Part shown: piece by piece, positions 11,797 to 54,504 of the stretch
How positions within the stretch are numbered: position 1 is the first letter of the stretch
Layout: each line of letters opens with the position of its first letter
Assembly: GCA_027487835.1 (NCBI GenBank)
Contig: JAIYCU010000013.1
Coordinates: 62,001 to 126,000 of the forward strand
DNA: 64,000 nucleotides
Reading direction: 5' to 3'
Source of the DNA: Bacteroidota bacterium
Lineage (GTDB): Bacteria; Bacteroidota; Bacteroidia; UKL13-3
Notes under the pieces: generated by a model
Told to the model about the DNA's origin: nothing
The model's database searches: none
Seen by the model: only the letters and a program-made list of their open reading frames with translations
Position numbers and translations under genes: made by a program

Positions 11797-14700
11797 ATGC
11801 TATCAAAAACTAATGAACAGGCTTTAGAGTCTACCGTAGAAAAACGCCTTACAGGTACATGCCTAGAAGAGTTGAAGGAGCAAAATATTGCTTTAAACAC
11901 CGTAAACGAAAGATCAGAATTGTATCGTTCTGGTAATGGCTATTATATTGGCGTTCCCGAAGATTTTAATGCAAAGTATGCTATAGACGAACATCGCTTT
12001 TGGAGTTTTTTACAAATAACCCAAAAGGATCAACTAGCAAAGATTCAAAAACAAGGTGATTGGAAATTAAAGATTCTTGAACGTTTGGATCGGATGATTA
12101 AAAAATACGGCATCCTGCGTTTGTTCCGTAAAGGTTTAGATGTAGATGATGCCCATTTCACTTTGTTGTATCCGTTGCCACTAGCAAGCAGTAGCGAAAC
12201 GGTGAAGGAAAACTTTGAAAGCAATCAATTTAGCTCTACCCGCCAACTTCGATATTCTTTAACCAATACTGGCGAAGAAATAGATATGGTACTTTTTGTG
12301 AATGGTTTGCCATATGCCACTATGGAATTAAAAAATCATTGGACAGGACAGAACGCAAAATTACATGGCCAAAATCAATACAAATTCAAAAGAGATATTA
12401 CCCAGCCTTTATTAAACTTTGGAAGATGCATTGTGCACTTTGCCGTTGATACTGATGAAGTGTATATGACAACCAAATTGGATGGAAAGGATACTTTCTT
12501 TTTACCTTTTAATTTAGGGCAGCGCGAACCCTTATTTGGCAAAGGAAATCCCCCTAACCCCTTTGGCCATAAAACAGCTTATTTATGGGAAGATATCTTT
12601 AAAAGAAAAAGCATTGCAAATATTATCCAACATTTTGTTCGATTTGATGGAAAAGACACAGTCCCATTAAATAAAAAAGCATTGTATTTTCCGCGCTATC
12701 ACCAACTAGATGTCGTAAGAAAAATCATTGCAGATGCGAGTAAAAAAGGTGTTGGTCAAACTTATTTAATTCAACATTCAGCGGGCTCAGGAAAATCAAA
12801 TTCCATTACTTGGGCTGCCTATCAGCTAATAGAAACCTATCCAGAAAATGATACCATTCCGGGCAGTAAGGGCATTTCTAATCCTTTATTTGATTCAGTG
12901 ATTGTTGTAACTGATAGAAGATTGTTAGACAAACAACTTCGTGAAAATATAAAAGAATTTTCGGAAGTAAAAAATATCGTTGCCCCTGCCCTTTCATCTT
13001 CTGACTTAAAGCTAGCTTTGGAAACTGGTAAAAAAATCATCATTACCACCATCCAAAAATTTCCATTTATTGTGGATGGCATTGCAGATTTAAGCGATAA
13101 AAGATTCGCTGTAATTATTGACGAAGCACACAGTAGTCAAAGTGGAACTGCCGCTGGTAAAATGAATCAGGCCATGGGAAATTCTTTTGAGGAATCAGAA
13201 GAAGAGGAAGACCCACAAGACAAAATATTGGAAGCCATGCGCACTCGCAAAATGCGGGGTAACGCATCCTATTTGGCATTTACGGCTACACCGAAGAACA
13301 ATACACTGGAACGTTTTGGCGTACAACAAGCCGATGGAAAGTTCAAGCCATTTCATTTGTATTCCATGAAACAAGCCATTGAGGAAGGTTTCATATTAGA
13401 TGTACTTGCGAATTACACAACTTATAAAAGTTATTACGAAATTGAAAAGTCAATTCAAGAAAACCCATTGTTTGATACAGTAAAAGCACAGAAGAAATTA
13501 AGGACCTACGTTGAACAGAACAAACAAACCATTGCCACCAAGGCTGACATCATGCTTGAACACTTTGTAACAAAATTGGTAAATACTAAAAAGTTAAAAG
13601 GAAAAGCAAAAGCAATAGTGGCATCACAAAGCATTGAATCTGCCATCAATTACTATTTCGCATTAAAAACATTATTACAAGAAAGAGGCAATCCATTTAG
13701 AATAGCAATTGCTTTTTCGGGTTCAAAAAAAATAAAAGGTATTGAATATACAGAAGACAGCCTTAATGATTTTCCTTCAAATTTAGATACAGCAAAACCA
13801 TCAGACCCAGGCTATATCAGCGACAAAATTGCCCGTTATTTTGATATGGACGAATACCGTATTTTAGTAGTGGCAAATAAATATCTGACAGGTTATGACC
13901 AACCTAAATTAACCGCTATGTATGTTGATAAAAAACTACAAGGTGTAATTGCGGTTCAGGCCCTATCAAGGTTAAATCGTTCATCCGATAAACTCGGGAA
14001 GAAAACCGAAGATTTATTCATTCTTGATTTTTACAACACTACTGAAGACATTAAAAAATCATTCGACCCATTTTATACTGCAACCTCATTAAGCAAAGCT
14101 ACCGACATCAATGTGCTTCATGACTTAAAATCCAATTTGGATGATGCTGGTGTTTATGAATGGAGCGAAGTGGAAGATTTCGTAGAGAAATATTTCAAAG
14201 GTGTAAATGCCCAAGAATTAAGTCCAATTATTGATATTGCTGCTGAACGATTTAATTTGACTTTAGCCTTAGAAGACAAGGCAAAGGCAGACTATAAAAT
14301 TAAAGCAAAGCACTTTGTAAAAATTTACGGTCAGATGGCTTCAATCATGCCTTATGAAGTGGCTGCTTGGGAGAAGTTATTTTGGTTTTTGAAATTCTTA
14401 ATTCCAAAATTAATCATCATAGATAATGAAAAAGATGCTTTAGATGGCTTATTAAATTCCGTTGACCTTTCGACCTATGGTTTAGAAAGAGTTAAACTAA
14501 ATACAAGTATTGCCCTCGATGCCAACGAAACAGAAGTTGATCCTCAGAATCCAAATCCAAGAGGCGCACATGGGGGAGAATCCGAAAAAGACGAGTTAGA
14601 TTTAATTATTAAGAGCTTTAACGAACGCTGGTTTCAAGGATGGGAAGCCACACCTGATGAACAACGAGCAAAATTTGTGAATCTAGCTCAGAAAATGAAA

Positions 14701-14895
14701 GAGCACAGCGACTTTAAAGAAAAGTATGCAGACAATTCCGATATACAAAATAGAGAAATTGCTTTCAGTAAAATATTTGATGAGGTAATGGGAAAACAAC
14801 GTAAGATTGAACTTGACCTTTATAGATTAGTTTCCCAAGATGAAGGATTTAAAATAGCAATGCAGGATACTATTAAAAGAATGTTGAGACCTTAA
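11797..14895 (+). CDS. hsdR: type I restriction enzyme subunit HsdR
   Basis: This is the motor and nuclease subunit. The N-terminal PD-(D/E)XK nuclease is intact: D163 in EEIDMVLF, E177-x-K179 in TMELKNHW, and the QxxxY motif of type I enzymes in HGQNQYKFKR. The SF2 translocase has Walker A SAGSGKS (K333), DEAH (442-445), the TATP motif and a C-terminal helicase lobe (LVVANKYLTGYDQP, LSRLNR). The last 150 residues are the helical part that docks on the methyltransferase. Length (1032) is standard. It is last in the operon, more than 4 kb after hsdS, so restriction would be expressed after modification and after all accessory genes. Confidence 0.97.
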   Translation: MLSKTNEQALESTVEKRLTGTCLEELKEQNIALNTVNERSELYRSGNGYYIGVPEDFNAKYAIDEHRFWSFLQITQKDQLAKIQKQGDWKLKILERLDRMIKKYGILRLFRKGLDVDDAHFTLLYPLPLASSSETVKENFESNQFSSTRQLRYSLTNTGEEIDMVLFVNGLPYATMELKNHWTGQNAKLHGQNQYKFKRDITQPLLNFGRCIVHFAVDTDEVYMTTKLDGKDTFFLPFNLGQREPLFGKGNPPNPFGHKTAYLWEDIFKRKSIANIIQHFVRFDGKDTVPLNKKALYFPRYHQLDVVRKIIADASKKGVGQTYLIQHSAGSGKSNSITWAAYQLIETYPENDTIPGSKGISNPLFDSVIVVTDRRLLDKQLRENIKEFSEVKNIVAPALSSSDLKLALETGKKIIITTIQKFPFIVDGIADLSDKRFAVIIDEAHSSQSGTAAGKMNQAMGNSFEESEEEEDPQDKILEAMRTRKMRGNASYLAFTATPKNNTLERFGVQQADGKFKPFHLYSMKQAIEEGFILDVLANYTTYKSYYEIEKSIQENPLFDTVKAQKKLRTYVEQNKQTIATKADIMLEHFVTKLVNTKKLKGKAKAIVASQSIESAINYYFALKTLLQERGNPFRIAIAFSGSKKIKGIEYTEDSLNDFPSNLDTAKPSDPGYISDKIARYFDMDEYRILVVANKYLTGYDQPKLTAMYVDKKLQGVIAVQALSRLNRSSDKLGKKTEDLFILDFYNTTEDIKKSFDPFYTATSLSKATDINVLHDLKSNLDDAGVYEWSEVEDFVEKYFKGVNAQELSPIIDIAAERFNLTLALEDKAKADYKIKAKHFVKIYGQMASIMPYEVAAWEKLFWFLKFLIPKLIIIDNEKDALDGLLNSVDLSTYGLERVKLNTSIALDANETEVDPQNPNPRGAHGGESEKDELDLIIKSFNERWFQGWEATPDEQRAKFVNLAQKMKEHSDFKEKYADNSDIQNREIAFSKIFDEVMGKQRKIELDLYRLVSQDEGFKIAMQDTIKRMLRP

Positions 14896-15070: not shown

Positions 15071-15967
15071 TCAAGTTAGGTTTTTCTGAGAAACAAAAGA
15101 AACAAACCAATCCTTAAAATTCTCGAATTTTCGATTATCACCCAACTCAGAAATAGGAATAGTCCATAATACTCCGTGTCTGGCGAAGTATAACCCTAAA
15201 TTTTCAATTGGCTTGTTTAGTTTATCATTATTAACACCTCCAATTAGTGATAAAATGTAATAGCCTAAAACTTGGTTAAAATACACTCTTTCAAGTTTTA
15301 AATGCTTGGTAGCTTTAATATCAATAAGAGTGTTATCAATAATTAGATCGGCATCTGCACCACCAACTAAAATTGACCCTTTACCAAAAGTTGGATTAAG
15401 GTAACATTTCTCTTTTGCTGTAAATTTTTTACGCTCTACTAAGGATATTAATGAAGTAATATCCTTAACGTCGTTAGGATCATTGTAATCAAATGAGTTA
15501 TCAATAATTCCTTTTCTAAAATATAAATCCAATTTAGCAAGAAATAATGTACTAGAAACTAATTCTTCAGTTATCCTTCCATTTAAAATGTAATTATCGT
15601 AATTGATTTTCGCTTGACTGTATTGTTCAATTAAAAGATAAAGAAGGTTTTTTGTATTAAATATCTTGTCCTTTCGGAATCCTGTTTTTATTTCCTTTTT
15701 TGACGACTGTCCAAGTATCTTAATTAAGGAATCATAAGCAGAATCAGCAATCCAGTCAGATTTTTGATTAATAATAATATTATTATGATACTGCAAATAA
15801 AATCGCATTAAATAGTCAAATGCAGTCCCAACAATTCCAGAATTATTGGTAAGAGGAGGTGCTTGTAAGTCAGAATTCAAATTGAGTTTAGGTATTGGAA
15901 AATCAGTTTTGAACTTATCCCTTAGCTCTTGATTATTTATGTCTGTAATTATTGATGTTAAGCTCAT
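15071..15967 (-). CDS. probable PD-(D/E)XK-fold protein, convergent with the restriction operon
   Basis: I cannot name the family. The segment GGADADLIIDNTLIDIKATK holds D207 and D217-I-K219 in the arrangement of a PD-(D/E)XK active site, followed by NQVLGYYIL (Q232, Y236), a helix often conserved in such nucleases. The first 180 residues are helical. It faces the restriction operon with about 175 bases between the stop codons. It may be an additional nuclease of the island, or a cargo gene. No signal peptide or membrane segment is visible. Confidence 0.55.
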   Translation of the reverse strand: MSLTSIITDINNQELRDKFKTDFPIPKLNLNSDLQAPPLTNNSGIVGTAFDYLMRFYLQYHNNIIINQKSDWIADSAYDSLIKILGQSSKKEIKTGFRKDKIFNTKNLLYLLIEQYSQAKINYDNYILNGRITEELVSSTLFLAKLDLYFRKGIIDNSFDYNDPNDVKDITSLISLVERKKFTAKEKCYLNPTFGKGSILVGGADADLIIDNTLIDIKATKHLKLERVYFNQVLGYYILSLIGGVNNDKLNKPIENLGLYFARHGVLWTIPISELGDNRKFENFKDWFVSFVSQKNLT

Positions 15968-16094
15968 GATTTATCGGGGTTTCTTGAAACTAATTTGTTT
16001 GAGAGGCATTTATTCTTCTACTCCCCCCCACAAACCTCCCACATTCCCACCAATAAAAAAATACCCATAAATAGGTATATTTTGAAATGGTTGA

Positions 16095-16178
16095 AGGTCG
16101 ATAGTCCATAGTCGATGGACGATAGTGTTCGAGGTAAGGCAAAATTCAACTATGGTCGATGGTCCATCGACTATGGTC
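16095..16178. repeat. inverted copies of a CCATAGTCGATGG motif
   Basis: GTCGATAGTCCATAGTCGATGG and nearby words appear in both orientations: CCATAGTCGATGGAC in the first third and its reverse complement GTCCATCGACTATGG in the last third, about 50 bases apart. The same words build the 35-bp array 1.1 kb further on, so the two repeat tracts flank the small gene at 16.7-17.2 kb. The upstream part of this gap (after the PD-(D/E)XK-like gene) has a C-rich run and no gene that I can see. Confidence 0.7.
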
Positions 16179-16186
16179 TAAAAAGA

Positions 16187-16560
16187 AACGCTCCATGTTG
16201 AATCATGCAGCATTCCATGTTGAAGCATGCATCACTCCATGTTCGAGCATGCAGCTCCCCAATATTGAGCATGCAACGTTCCATGTTGAAGCATGCAACG
16301 CTCCATGTTGAAGCATGCAACGCTCCAATGCTGAGGATGCAGCGCCCCAATGTTGAGCATTCAGCGTTCCATGTTGAAGCATGCAGCGCCCCAATGTTGA
16401 GGATGCAGCGCTCAATGTTGGAGGATGCAGCGCCCCAATGTTGAGGATGCAACGTTCCATATTGGAGCATGCAGCGCTGCAATGTTGAGGATGCAACGCT
16501 CCATGTTGGAGGATGGAATGCTCCATGGTTGGGATAGGAACGCTTCTAGGGAACGATAGG
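16187..16560. repeat. strictly phased 22-bp tandem array, about 17 units
   Basis: Reading the tract in steps of 22 bases from 16187 keeps register throughout with no insertion or deletion. The core words are AACGCTCCATGTTG and AAGCATGC, with variant units reading AGCGCCCCAATGTTGAGG. Units decay at the right end (after about 16516). Each unit contains an imperfect dyad (CAAC...GTTG) and often the palindrome GCATGC. Because 22 is not a multiple of three, all frames stay open by repeat structure rather than by coding, and the apparent proteins here are not genes. The tract is directly followed by a terminator that serves the gene on the other strand. Confidence 0.9.
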
Positions 16561-16600
16561 AAGCTTTGCGTGTAAGTATACTGTTAATCAGTTTTTTACA

Positions 16601-16634
16601 AAAAAAAATGGGCGTGCAATTGCACACCCATTTT
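16601..16634 (-). terminator. intrinsic terminator of the small minus-strand gene
   Basis: On the minus strand a hairpin with arms AAAATGGGTGTGCAA and TTGCACGCCCATTTT (one G-T wobble) is followed by a run of T. It lies 43 bases after the stop codon of the 159-residue protein. Confidence 0.85.
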
Positions 16635-16676
16635 GAACCTTGCTTACAGTGCTATGTAATCAACATAGCAATACTT

Positions 16677-17156
16677 TTAGGCTTTTGGCGCTTCGTTAGC
16701 CTTTGGCGCTATGACTTTTCTTTCGAACATGTCCTTTAGCTCGTCATAGGCCGTTTTGGCACCATCAACGCCTTTTTTAGTGCCCCTTTTGGTGCCGCTG
16801 TAAACTTCCAATGCAGCCATGTACGCTTCACTGCCTGCCTGGTCGCGGGTGTCGTGCAGGCGCTTTAAAAGCCTTTCTACTTGGCCAATGATTACATCTA
16901 GGCTTTGGGTAAGACTGATGTCGTTCTCATAATTGACCATCTCAAAAAACATGGGCTGAATTTTGGGATTGCTTTGTGCCAAAAATAAGGCCCTTCGCAC
17001 AAAATCAACCCTTCCGGCATCCATGTTCATGAGGCGCCTCGACTCGGCTGCACTCAATTCAATTAAAAAGGGTAAGTCGGTAAAAATGCTCTGAATGGCA
17101 GCTTCTACCTTGGTTTGCGTGGCAGCATCTATGGCTGCGTTTACTTTATTATCCAT
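16677..17156 (-). CDS. conserved hypothetical protein, all-helical, Bacteroidota type
   Basis: The 159-residue product is predicted helical and soluble, with no signal peptide. The stretch DLPFLIELSAAESRRLMNMD followed by a ...GSEAYMAALEVY motif is one I have seen in small Bacteroidota proteins of unknown function. It ends in an Ala/Pro/Lys-rich tail. It is monocistronic, has its own terminator, and is isolated between two repeat tracts (22-bp array downstream, 35-bp array upstream). Base composition is visibly more GC-rich than its surroundings. The function is unknown. Confidence 0.8.
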   Translation of the reverse strand: MDNKVNAAIDAATQTKVEAAIQSIFTDLPFLIELSAAESRRLMNMDAGRVDFVRRALFLAQSNPKIQPMFFEMVNYENDISLTQSLDVIIGQVERLLKRLHDTRDQAGSEAYMAALEVYSGTKRGTKKGVDGAKTAYDELKDMFERKVIAPKANEAPKA

Positions 17157-17240
17157 AATGAACGCAAACCTATCTATCCGGAAAAAGAAGATTCATAGAA
17201 TTAGTTCGAAAAAATTGAGAATTAGTTGGAAGTCCATGGT

Positions 17241-17415
17241 AAGAAGTCCATGGTCGATAGTCGATGGTCCATGGTAAGAAGTCCATGGTCGATAGTCGAT
17301 GGTCCATAGTAAGAAGTCCATGGTCGATAGACGATGGTCCATGGTAAGAAGTCCATGGTCGATAGTCGATGGTCCATGGTAAGAGGTCCATGGTCGATGG
17401 TCGATGGTCCGTGGT
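17241..17415. repeat. five 35-bp direct repeats, followed by degenerate GTCTATGGACTATGG copies
   Basis: Units begin with AAGA(A/G)GTCCATGG at 17241, 17276, 17311, 17346 and 17381, spaced by exactly 35 bases. Inside each unit TCCATGGTCGATAGTCGATGG and CCATGG give partial dyads. From about 17430 to 17475 shorter 15-base copies of the words TCTATGGACTATGG follow in the opposite sense. The same words occur at 16.1 kb. Apparent short proteins rich in DHGLSTMD-type residues are by-products of the repeat. This fills the gap between the 159-residue protein and the OmpA-family gene; the last 90 bases before that gene hold no other feature that I can identify. Confidence 0.9.
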
Positions 17416-17567
17416 AGCAGTAGTTCAACTATGGTCTATGGACTATCGTCTATGGACTATGGTCTATGGACTATGGAACTTCTAAAGAAATGGAAATAAA
17501 ATTAAAAATAACTAATTTAAAAACACCTTTCCCAAAATTCCTCCAAATTTCTTAACTTGCCAATACC

Positions 17568-42213: not shown

Positions 42214-44340
42214 CTACTTCATAATCTTTCTAATGATTTGCTCTTGGCCACTTTGAATGTTTAAAAGGTATAAGCCAGGATTGCAGTTGCCCAAATCAAG
42301 TTGAATGGCATTATGTCCTTTTAGTAAAGTTGCCTCAGTTTCTAAGATCAATCTACCAGAAAGGTCGATTAAACGGATGGTGGCAGTTTGTAAAATCTTA
42401 GCATTCAATTCAACATGCAACATCTTATCTACAGGATTTGGGTAAACACCACTTAACTCCATTTGGTTCAAACCTAAACCAGTAGAGATATTGCTTACTT
42501 CAACATCTTCACAATGCATGTCTGAGCATGAATCGGTGCTATTTATCACACTTAAACAAACACTATATTTTCCATTCTGCATAAAGGTATGTTGCCCACT
42601 CCCATCCTGACTAAAAGTACCATCTCCAAAATTCCAATAAGATACTAAATTAGCTCCTGAGACACTGCTGAATTCGAATTTCCCTGGCGTTGTATTATCG
42701 GGTGTAAAAGAAAAGTCTGCCGCACATTGCTGCTGGGTAATGTTTCCTGGGAATAACACACTTACGCAAAACATACTTTTGCAATTGGTGTCTAAGGTAT
42801 TTACCACATATAAACAGGCTGTGTGCCAACCCGGACTCATAAAATTATGTTCTACATTGGTGCTAGTTACAGGTGTACCACCATCAAATACCCAACGGTA
42901 TTGCAATGGACTACCTGCAGAGCGGTTAATAAAGCGATAGCTGCTGGTATTGCCAATTCTTTCGTAATCAAAAGAGGCCACACAAGCAATAGGATTGCTG
43001 TTTCCTGTATTAAAAGTTTTGCAGGTAGTGCTTTTGCAAAGCGTGTCATTGCCAGCGCTAATATTATAAATGGTTAAGCAAACTGTTTTTGACCCAAGCG
43101 TTGCAAAATTGTGAAGTGGATTGCAGTTATCTGAAGAGGTTCCATCGCCAAAATTGTAAACACAACGGGTATGGGTGCCTGTAGAAGAATTGGTAAACCT
43201 AACATAATGCGGGTTTGAACCAATGCTATCACTTTTGATGATATTAAAATTTGCATTGCAATTTCCTGTTGACCCAACCAAGATGCTATCGCAAATGGTT
43301 TGAGTACAAGTAGAGTCTTTCTTAGTTACTTTTAAGCAAACCTTGTACTTACCATTGTTTAAATAGGTTCTAAAGGTGAGTCGGCTATCAGAAGAAGTTC
43401 CATCCCCAAAAGTCCATAAGTACCTATAATTGGTATCATTCAAAGCAGCTGAAAAATATACTTTCTTACTGTTTGTAGGGTCATTTTGCTTGGTCCAATT
43501 GGCATTGCAAGGATTAGCCGATTCTATGGTGATGGAATCACAAATGGTTTGAGTACAAGTAGAGTCTTTCTTTGTTACTTTTAAGCAAACCTTGTATTTA
43601 CCATTGTTTAAATAGGTTCTAAAGGTGAGTCGGCTATCAGAAGAAGTTCCATCCCCAAAGGTCCAAAAGTACCTGAAATTGGTATCATTTAAAGTGGCTG
43701 TGAAATATTTTTTCTTGCTATTAACTGGGTCATTTTGCTTGGTCCAATTGGCATTGCAAGGAGTAGAAGACGATTCTACAGTTATAGAATCACAAATGGT
43801 TTGAGTACAAGTTGAGTCTTTCTTTGTTACCTTTAAGCAAACCTTGTATTTACCATTGTTTAAATAGGTTTTAAAGGTAAGTCGGCTATCAGAGGAAGTT
43901 CCATCCCCAAAGGTCCATAAGTACCTGAAATTGGTATCATTTAAAGTGGCCGTGAAATATTTTTTCTTGCTATTAACTGGGTCATTTTGCTTGGTCCAAT
44001 TGGCATTGCAAGGATTAGGCATTTCTACGTTAACCGTATCACATATGGTTTGGGTGCAAGATGAATCCTTTTTGGTCACCTTTAAGCAAACCCTATATTT
44101 ACCAACATTTGAATAAGCATGAAAAGTTACTCGGCTATCAGACGAGGTACTATCACCAAAAGTCCACAAATACCTATAATTGGTATCATTTAAGGCGGCT
44201 GAGAAATAATACTTTTTGAAATTGTTTGGATCTTTTTGTTTGGTCCAATTGGCATTACAAGGACCTTGGGCGCTGATTTCACTAAATGAAAGGAGGGCTA
44301 AAAGAAAAAAAATCGCGTTGAGTAGTGAGTGTTTTTTCAT
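42214..44340 (-). CDS. secreted PKD-repeat protein with type IX secretion sorting domain
   Basis: Signal peptide ending SEISAQ. Four nearly identical repeats of about 83 residues each start (P)CNANWTKQ(K/N)DP and contain the PKD core YLWTFGD(G/S)TSSDSR. Three diverged PKD domains follow (CVYNFGDGTSSDN, YRWVFDGG, SYWNFGDGTF). The last 75 residues are a type A T9SS sorting domain: GVYPNPVDKMLHVEL, IRLIDLSGR, LNPGLYLLNI-like, then IRKIMK. The product is expected on the cell surface or released, with the sorting domain removed. Pairs of Cys in every repeat (CLKVTKKDSTCTQTICD) probably form disulphides. Recent amplification is evident. Confidence 0.9.
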   Translation of the reverse strand: MKKHSLLNAIFFLLALLSFSEISAQGPCNANWTKQKDPNNFKKYYFSAALNDTNYRYLWTFGDSTSSDSRVTFHAYSNVGKYRVCLKVTKKDSSCTQTICDTVNVEMPNPCNANWTKQNDPVNSKKKYFTATLNDTNFRYLWTFGDGTSSDSRLTFKTYLNNGKYKVCLKVTKKDSTCTQTICDSITVESSSTPCNANWTKQNDPVNSKKKYFTATLNDTNFRYFWTFGDGTSSDSRLTFRTYLNNGKYKVCLKVTKKDSTCTQTICDSITIESANPCNANWTKQNDPTNSKKVYFSAALNDTNYRYLWTFGDGTSSDSRLTFRTYLNNGKYKVCLKVTKKDSTCTQTICDSILVGSTGNCNANFNIIKSDSIGSNPHYVRFTNSSTGTHTRCVYNFGDGTSSDNCNPLHNFATLGSKTVCLTIYNISAGNDTLCKSTTCKTFNTGNSNPIACVASFDYERIGNTSSYRFINRSAGSPLQYRWVFDGGTPVTSTNVEHNFMSPGWHTACLYVVNTLDTNCKSMFCVSVLFPGNITQQQCAADFSFTPDNTTPGKFEFSSVSGANLVSYWNFGDGTFSQDGSGQHTFMQNGKYSVCLSVINSTDSCSDMHCEDVEVSNISTGLGLNQMELSGVYPNPVDKMLHVELNAKILQTATIRLIDLSGRLILETEATLLKGHNAIQLDLGNCNPGLYLLNIQSGQEQIIRKIMK

Positions 44341-46254: not shown

Positions 46255-46424
46255 AGCCCTGAAGGGGCGCTATACTTTAACATAGGGTATCGCCCTATGA
46301 TATACACTAACATAGGGTATCGCCCTATGATATGCACTAACATAGGGTATCGCCCTATGATATACACTAACATAGGGTATCGCCCTATGATATACCTCCC
46401 TATGAGCCCTGAAGGGGCGCCATA
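46255..46424. repeat. four 30-bp hairpin units framed by a direct repeat
   Basis: The hairpin CATAGGGTATCGCCCTATG occurs at 46281, 46311, 46341 and 46371, exactly 30 bases apart. The group is framed by GCCCTGAAGGGGCGC at about 46256 and 46406. A short apparent protein with YIIGRYPML repeats is only a translation of the array. These have the form of REP-like elements next to a Y1 transposase. Confidence 0.85.
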
Positions 46425-46485: not shown

Positions 46486-46645
46486 CACCCCTTCGGGGCT
46501 GTGTATGTAGTTATAGATGTGACTCTCGATGGGCTTAACCCATCGTTGGTGGTATAACGCCCCTTCGGGGCTATGATAAGCAGTTATAGATGTGACTTTC
46601 GATGGTCTAAACCCATCGTTGGTGGTATTACGCCCCTTCGGGGCT
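46486..46645. repeat. three copies of a CCCCTTCGGGG hairpin repeat of about 72 bp
   Basis: CGCCCCTTCGGGGCT-type hairpins occur near 46488, 46559 and 46632. Between them a second dyad, GATGGG...CCCATC, followed by GTTGGTGGTAT, is repeated. The two families of hairpin fill the gap between the transposase gene and the gene fragment that follows; I see no gene in it. Confidence 0.8.
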
Positions 46646-46699
46646 GTGTTATGTAGTTATAGATGTACAATCCTTATTATGGGTCGATGCATGGGGTTA

Positions 46700-54042: not shown

Positions 54043-54130
54043 ATGTTTATTACTGGTTATTTACAACTCTTTTATCAAGTAAAGTTCTTTTATTAAATTT
54101 TTAAAATAAAAACCACTTGAAATAATCATT

Positions 54131-54504
54131 CCAATCTAAAATAGTTGAGTTTAAGAACATAACCAGTTATATTCGGAAGTATACCTAGTTATATACACAG
54201 CAATACTCAGTTATGTAACCAGGTGTAGTCCGTTTTACACGGAGAAATACTCAGGTATGGTTGGAAGTATAACCAGTTATACACAGAGTCATACTTATTT
54301 AAATATGGAGGTAAACTCATTTATGTATAAAGGTAAACTCATTTATATACAAAGGTAAACTCATTTATGTATAAAGGTAAACTCATTTATGTGTAAAGGT
54401 AAACTCATTTATGTGTAAAGGTAAACCCAGTTATGTATGGAAGAGTACCAAGCTATGTGCAAACCATACCAAGCTATGCAGAAAAGTACAATAAGGTATC
54501 ATGC
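54131..54504. repeat. strictly phased 22-bp tandem array, 16-17 units
   Basis: Stepping by 22 bases from 54153 the register holds through 54504 with no insertion or deletion, and one further unit to the left fits weakly. The central units share GGTAAACTCATTTATGTAT; outer units drift to GGAAGTATACC(T/C)AGTTAT and ATAACCAGTTAT. Most have a dyad of the form ATAAC-NN-GTTAT. Period and copy number equal those of the array near 16 kb, although the sequence is unrelated. The bases from 54043 to 54130 show nothing else. A short plus-strand frame crossing the end of the array is not a gene. Confidence 0.9.

Follow-up and report, generated by a model that had tools for sequence, protein, structure and literature searches.

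Minisatellites are usually described via the sequence of their unit. Among other short repeats, the cyanobacterial STRRs are short intergenic tandem repeats with a 7-base unit, plasmid iterons have one sequence per replicon and are located beside a Rep gene, and REP palindromes are not known to form spacer-free arrays with a fixed period. The system most resembling the one analyzed here is BrickBuilt, a MITE of Porphyromonas gingivalis which, in the part of the published account available to us, carries a 23-nt minisatellite between a leader and a tail, is strictly intergenic and multi-copy, varies in number by whole units, and has inverted ends matching an IS (PMC4596501); long stem-loop pairing has been proposed for it in the same text (PMC4596501). 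The excerpts available on two other classes describe heptamer direct repeats, such as TAACTGA, as short intergenic tandem repeats reported in Bacteroidetes too (PMC4679880), and REP palindromes as intergenic, multi-copy, and dyad-bearing (PMC3733652).

The locus studied here is a tandem array of 22-bp units (family F1) in a 64,000-nucleotide stretch of DNA from a Bacteroidota bacterium, the whole of which is referred to below as the window. Like BrickBuilt, as far as the available text describes it, the 22-bp arrays consist of spacer-free tandem units, close in length to its own, are intergenic, occur in many copies, and vary in unit number by whole units; a leader and a tail with inverted ends are present in family F3, and the window array lies past a terminator, as in the example described for BrickBuilt. 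Unlike BrickBuilt, with which they were compared by description and not by sequence, they have a period of 22 instead of 23, and several unrelated unit families occur per genome, and even per element, in several species. The window array itself is intergenic and spacer-free but has neither the 23-nt period nor a leader or tail. Heptamer repeats and STRRs are likewise short, intergenic, and tandem; the 22-base arrays differ in being longer and diverged and in having a unit of 22 instead of 7 bases. Plasmid iterons share the 22-bp phased direct repeats, but many unrelated sequences at many loci are involved here, and REP palindromes are also intergenic, dyad-bearing, and multi-copy, but the 22-bp arrays show no covariation. 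Our search of the literature on 22-bp bacterial arrays yielded no account of these families.

We regard the 22-bp arrays as BrickBuilt-like minisatellite elements, the unusual part of which is a single period across unrelated unit sequences. It is well supported that they are dispersed minisatellites of 22 bp which keep their spacing and, in part, sit in shells of the IS256 type. The best explanation as a whole, to which we assign a probability of roughly 0.55, sees in the window array a non-coding minisatellite that belongs to this dispersed set and depends on its register.

The Window Array and Its Gene Neighborhood

The features around the array are as follows (window positions):

16187 to 16516, minus strand: core of the F1 array, 15 clear units (TRF, 22-base rows, and unit profiles), minus-strand consensus GCATGCTCCAACATGGAGCGYT
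16517 to 16560, minus strand: two degenerate units in which the 22-bp register is kept (row cutting)
16253, 16319, 16341, 16385, 16429, and 16473: F1 rows with an internal one-base shift (gapped alignment)
16605 to 16634, minus strand: terminator-like hairpin and T run serving the upstream gene
16677 to 17156, minus strand: upstream gene, 159 aa, no family above the curated cut-off
15071 to 15967, minus strand: downstream gene, 298 aa, no family
16097 to 16180, no strand assigned: heptamer-like repeats of the CCATAGTCGATGG type, on the opposite side of the array from the terminator

When the tract from 16187 to 16560 is cut every 22 bases, 17 rows in register are obtained (15 clear and 2 degenerate), and the 17-unit array near 16 kb reported in a preliminary description of this DNA is therefore real. 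The autocorrelation proposed there as a check gave, in the first 340 bases, self-identities of 72% at lag 22, 76% at lag 44, 73% at lag 66, and 82% at lag 88, as against 39% at the best lag other than a multiple of 22. Periods of 22, 44, and 88 were detected by TRF with a score climbing from the first to the last, which indicates that four-unit blocks have been copied. The units diverge at up to a third of their positions, as had been stated and as was found to be correct by eye. The statement that there is not a single indel holds for the net spacing, which is always 22, but not literally: TRF counts 6% indels at period 22, and the units occur in two forms, the middle of about six rows being displaced by one base and then restored, so that the gapped alignment shows a one-base shift opened and closed within each of them. 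These shifted units are compensated insertions and deletions (+1/-1) which keep the net length constant at 22. The units abut without any unique spacers between them, as CRISPR repeats do not, and the array gave three Rfam matches, all far below the gathering threshold.

The array is intergenic and flanked by two minus-strand genes. It starts 45 bases past the terminator-like hairpin of the upstream gene, and the downstream gene starts 220 bases past the array. In neither neighbor was a Pfam family found above the cut-off, and neither was thus recognized as a replication initiator. These data bear on the idea that the array is iteron-like, i.e., a set of phased direct repeats to which a replication or partition protein would bind, as in plasmid origins. 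The spacing is close to two helical turns, and some plasmid papers, in the portions available, mention 22-bp tandem repeats; but since the loci are numerous and their unit sequences unrelated, and the neighboring genes match no family, this reading is highly improbable. Still less credible is a coding repeat read in frames of 103–107 aa: minus-strand frames are open over most of the F1 tract, but they match no family, an open frame is lacking in most of the remaining arrays, and a period of 22 is not divisible by 3; the coding reading was therefore rejected.

The upstream gene has an orthologue in genome G007 (80% identity), directly downstream of which there is a 22-bp array of a different sequence (family F5); the upstream gene is the only part common to the two sites. 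A paralogue of this gene, 70% identical (L023, G000 C40:77355-77798), has no 22-bp array downstream.

Several other repeats were noted in the window. A heptamer-based array of the CCATGGTCGATAGTCGATGG type, with periods of 7, 14, and 35, is located at 17232-17477, and tracts resembling it border the F1 array and are also present at C27:49159-49247. TRF also detected arrays of 30 and 73 bp at 46271-46395 and 46488-46666, and a 249-bp tandem repeat in four copies at 43288-44263. An HsdR-like type I restriction gene lies at 11797-14895 (TIGR00348 below the cut-off, several Pfam domains above it).

Distribution of the 22-bp Families

The F1 sequence recovered only one further locus in its own genome, C22, which is 76% identical and consists of 17 F1-type units in the same register, fused in line to 13-14 units of another family, F2. 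Among 97 other genomes only a single weak match of 29 bases was obtained, so that F1 is confined in this set to two loci of its own genome. The exact F1 unit pattern gave no match in the genome_contigs and viral_contigs collections, from which records of or near its own genome may have been excluded.

F2 is present in 4 of 98 genomes, each within the same genus, and F3 in 4 of 19 genomes of that genus. The length of the unit is nearly constant in both: 210 of 217 full F2 units are 22 long and the other seven 21 long (18 loci, remaining from 29 given after 2 had fallen under the score threshold and 9 of the 27 listed had been dropped as duplicates), and 123 of 127 full F3 units are 22 long. The window also carries a second 22-bp array:

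54130 to 54500, plus strand: array of family F4, unit ATACTCAGTTATGTATAAAGGT, between convergent genes

F4 is related in sequence to F5, the array beside the G007 orthologue of the 159-aa gene. When unit profiles were compared in all rotations and on both strands with column-shuffled profiles, F1, F2, F3, and F4/F5 resembled each other no more than the shuffled profiles did, while clear kinship was found between the two F1 loci and between F4 and F5 (p < 0.001 each), and a value of p = 0.010 was obtained for F5 and a further array, F6. The genus thus has four or more 22-base families that are unrelated to each other, and these are found between genes in as many as four of its species. The arrays are intergenic and mostly close to the 3' end of a neighboring gene; the orientation of F2 relative to that gene is inconsistent among loci.

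Five 22-bp arrays (L070, L071, L087, L138, and L141) are located at the ends of contigs; with arrays placed in this way, draft assemblies probably undercount them.

Leaders, Tails, and IS256-Type Ends

At most loci the F2 arrays end in one common leader (reverse complement TATAGAGCAAGAGTGAAGAGAAAGAG), the tail being less clear. The same leader, which starts with GAGTTTACACACTTAATGRGACRCTACC, precedes the F3 arrays, and on their far side lies a tail that closes with the inverted form of the leader start, the inverted ends being imperfect. With the leader as query, matches were obtained in 5 of 60 genomes, each of them a member of the same genus. In G017, roughly the first 25 bases of the leader were matched some 100 bases away from the gene for a complete IS256-type transposase (PF00872, E 4e-114), the comparison being made with the leader-side end of the IS only. 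In searches of the four genomes that bear arrays (G000, G007, G009, and G013), the sole trace of PF00872 was a fragment in G009. The flanks of the F3 elements do not match each other, and no target-site duplication was seen. On the basis of these sequence comparisons, F2 and F3 appear to be borne, in the fashion of a BrickBuilt-like MITE, with a leader ending like an IS256-type transposon, which suggests that IS256-type ends might spread 22-bp arrays of this kind.

The region of the window array (15960-16680) has no shared leader, tail, or long-range inverted ends, and its connection with the MITE shell is therefore indirect, via the copy at C22, where the F1-type units, the F2 units, and the leader follow each other continuously. 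The window array would then be a descendant whose shell was lost or never present.

Turnover at Shared Sites

At three pairs of sites, the flanks match on both sides while the arrays differ. At L162/L136, an F3 array plus two F2 units (G000 C45) corresponds to F2 in G007; at L167/L137, F3 in G007 corresponds to F2 in G009; and at L132/L058, F2 in G009 corresponds to a 42/63-bp array in G000. F2 and F3 have the leader in common and are found side by side within a single element; unequal growth of adjacent tracts may therefore account for the exchanges of F2 and F3 better than a replacement of the entire array would. A further candidate swap, between F2 at G007 C15 and F3 at G000 C27, was dropped, since L139 proved to be a paralogue, and at L159, the true orthologue, F3 has been kept. 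Arrays of the same family at the same site in two species (L126/L142 and L158/L159) differ in unit number, and the length differences between orthologous arrays amount to whole units.

These observations are of the kind expected of a neutral minisatellite, in which slippage or unequal recombination copies in-register units only, and units of another length disappear with no selected function involved. The whole-unit differences, the four-unit blocks scoring highest in both F1 and a G007 array, the fact that the site of the same gene may carry arrays of other sequence, and the inconsistent orientation of F2 all speak in its favor. By itself, however, neutrality leaves unexplained why a period of 22 is common to unrelated families and why other non-coding arrays cluster at 21, 42, and 63, and we consider it possible but somewhat unlikely.

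Apparent Constraint on Spacing and the Period Spectrum

The arrays were aligned between loci, and the leaders and flanking intergenic DNA, aligned in the same manner, served as the control, leaving out leader pairs aligning over less than 40 bases (3 of 8 pairs). The result varies with the gap cost: at the first cost, indels and substitutions numbered 4:497 in the arrays and 15:121 in the neighboring non-coding DNA (p = 8e-8), indels per substitution being about 15 times rarer in the arrays, and at a stricter cost 1:495 and 3:103 (p = 0.019); since unit variants are copied, the counts are not independent events. The 22-base spacing is shown statistically to be kept far better than the sequence. 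The earlier proposal that selection or a copying mechanism acts on spacing agrees with this indel deficit and with the fact that unrelated families all have units of 22, which make the spacing look constrained.

The TRF survey of periods covered 1.16 Mb of the array's own genome and yielded 16 non-coding arrays, with periods of 22/44 in seven, of 21, 42, or 63 in five, and of 6, 7, 14, or 30 in four. The preliminary description had named equally common arrays of other periods as one finding that would speak against it, and the outcome is divided: 22/44 is the commonest period in the sample as a whole (7/16), but two of the surveyed contigs had been picked for holding F1, and without them 22/44 accounts for 2 of 6 arrays as against 4 of 6 for 42 or 63. 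Four arrays with periods that are multiples of 21 were noted in other parts of the genome:

L064, 2841 to 3178: 42- or 63-bp array
L058, 6590 to 6867: 42- or 63-bp array
L040, 2029 to 2336: 42- or 63-bp array
L183, 7552 to 7853: 42- or 63-bp array

They possibly form a second class at the scale of the helix, and some of them may be coding. The pieces of G007 that were sampled are the beginnings of contigs, which are probably rich in repeats; in them, four of five arrays have a period of 22 and one a period of 23. Period 22 occurs in one of two arrays in the G013 sample, and no period-22 arrays were found in the samples of G004 and G038 or in 100 kb of G009.

Helical Phasing and Hairpins

The helical repeat of DNA is 10.5 bp, and consecutive 22-bp units therefore drift by about 34 degrees each. 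This drift does not fit the view that each dyad faces the same side of the DNA, nor was any excess of the 11-bp harmonic found in AT content or roll, a result that lends a protein platform no support. The protein-bound or architectural role put forward at the outset is thus not supported, and tests of hairpins by column-pair covariation gave weak or absent signals. Pairing within the units of the window array was not above that of column shuffles (p = 0.98 and 0.66), and results elsewhere were mostly null, the two lowest values of 12 tests being p = 0.033 and 0.037.

Folding of the whole array gave, relative to dinucleotide shuffles, z values of -5.4 (RNA) and -3.8 (DNA) for the minus strand and -3.4 for the plus strand. 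Together with mismatches which, judged by eye, are compatible with wobble and favor the minus strand, these values could be taken to mean that self-complementary units pair along an RNA or single-stranded DNA strand into a long stem-loop, the register of which is held by the equal length of the units. But strong z values are to be expected of any partly palindromic repeated unit, since shuffling destroys the repeats; the within-unit pairing is no better than that of the shuffles, and no Rfam family was recognized. The inconsistent orientation of F2 also argues against a function as a one-strand RNA. Altogether, a stem-loop origin of the constraint seems unlikely.

Possible Significance of the Register

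If the window array is indeed a register-dependent minisatellite of the dispersed set, the arrays would expand and contract as blocks of one, two, and four units are duplicated or lost, and off-length units would be purged, the array functioning, or amplifying, only with its units in register. As a first guess, a DNA-binding or nucleoid protein might require the register, using the array as an evenly spaced platform on which each unit spans about two helical turns.

A bolder proposal, which we find rather unlikely, takes the period as such to be what is conserved: intergenic sites near gene ends would keep an array with units of about two turns while its letters change wholesale, whether through divergence, differential amplification, or exchange between transposon shells of modular build. 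If the proposal were true, the cell or the element would read spacing and not sequence.

The BrickBuilt kind of element is extended by these arrays to another genus. The fact that 22-bp arrays often terminate contigs in these assemblies makes them relevant to assembly, and the shared period, together with the three pairs of sites carrying differing arrays, makes the purpose of a short bacterial minisatellite testable.
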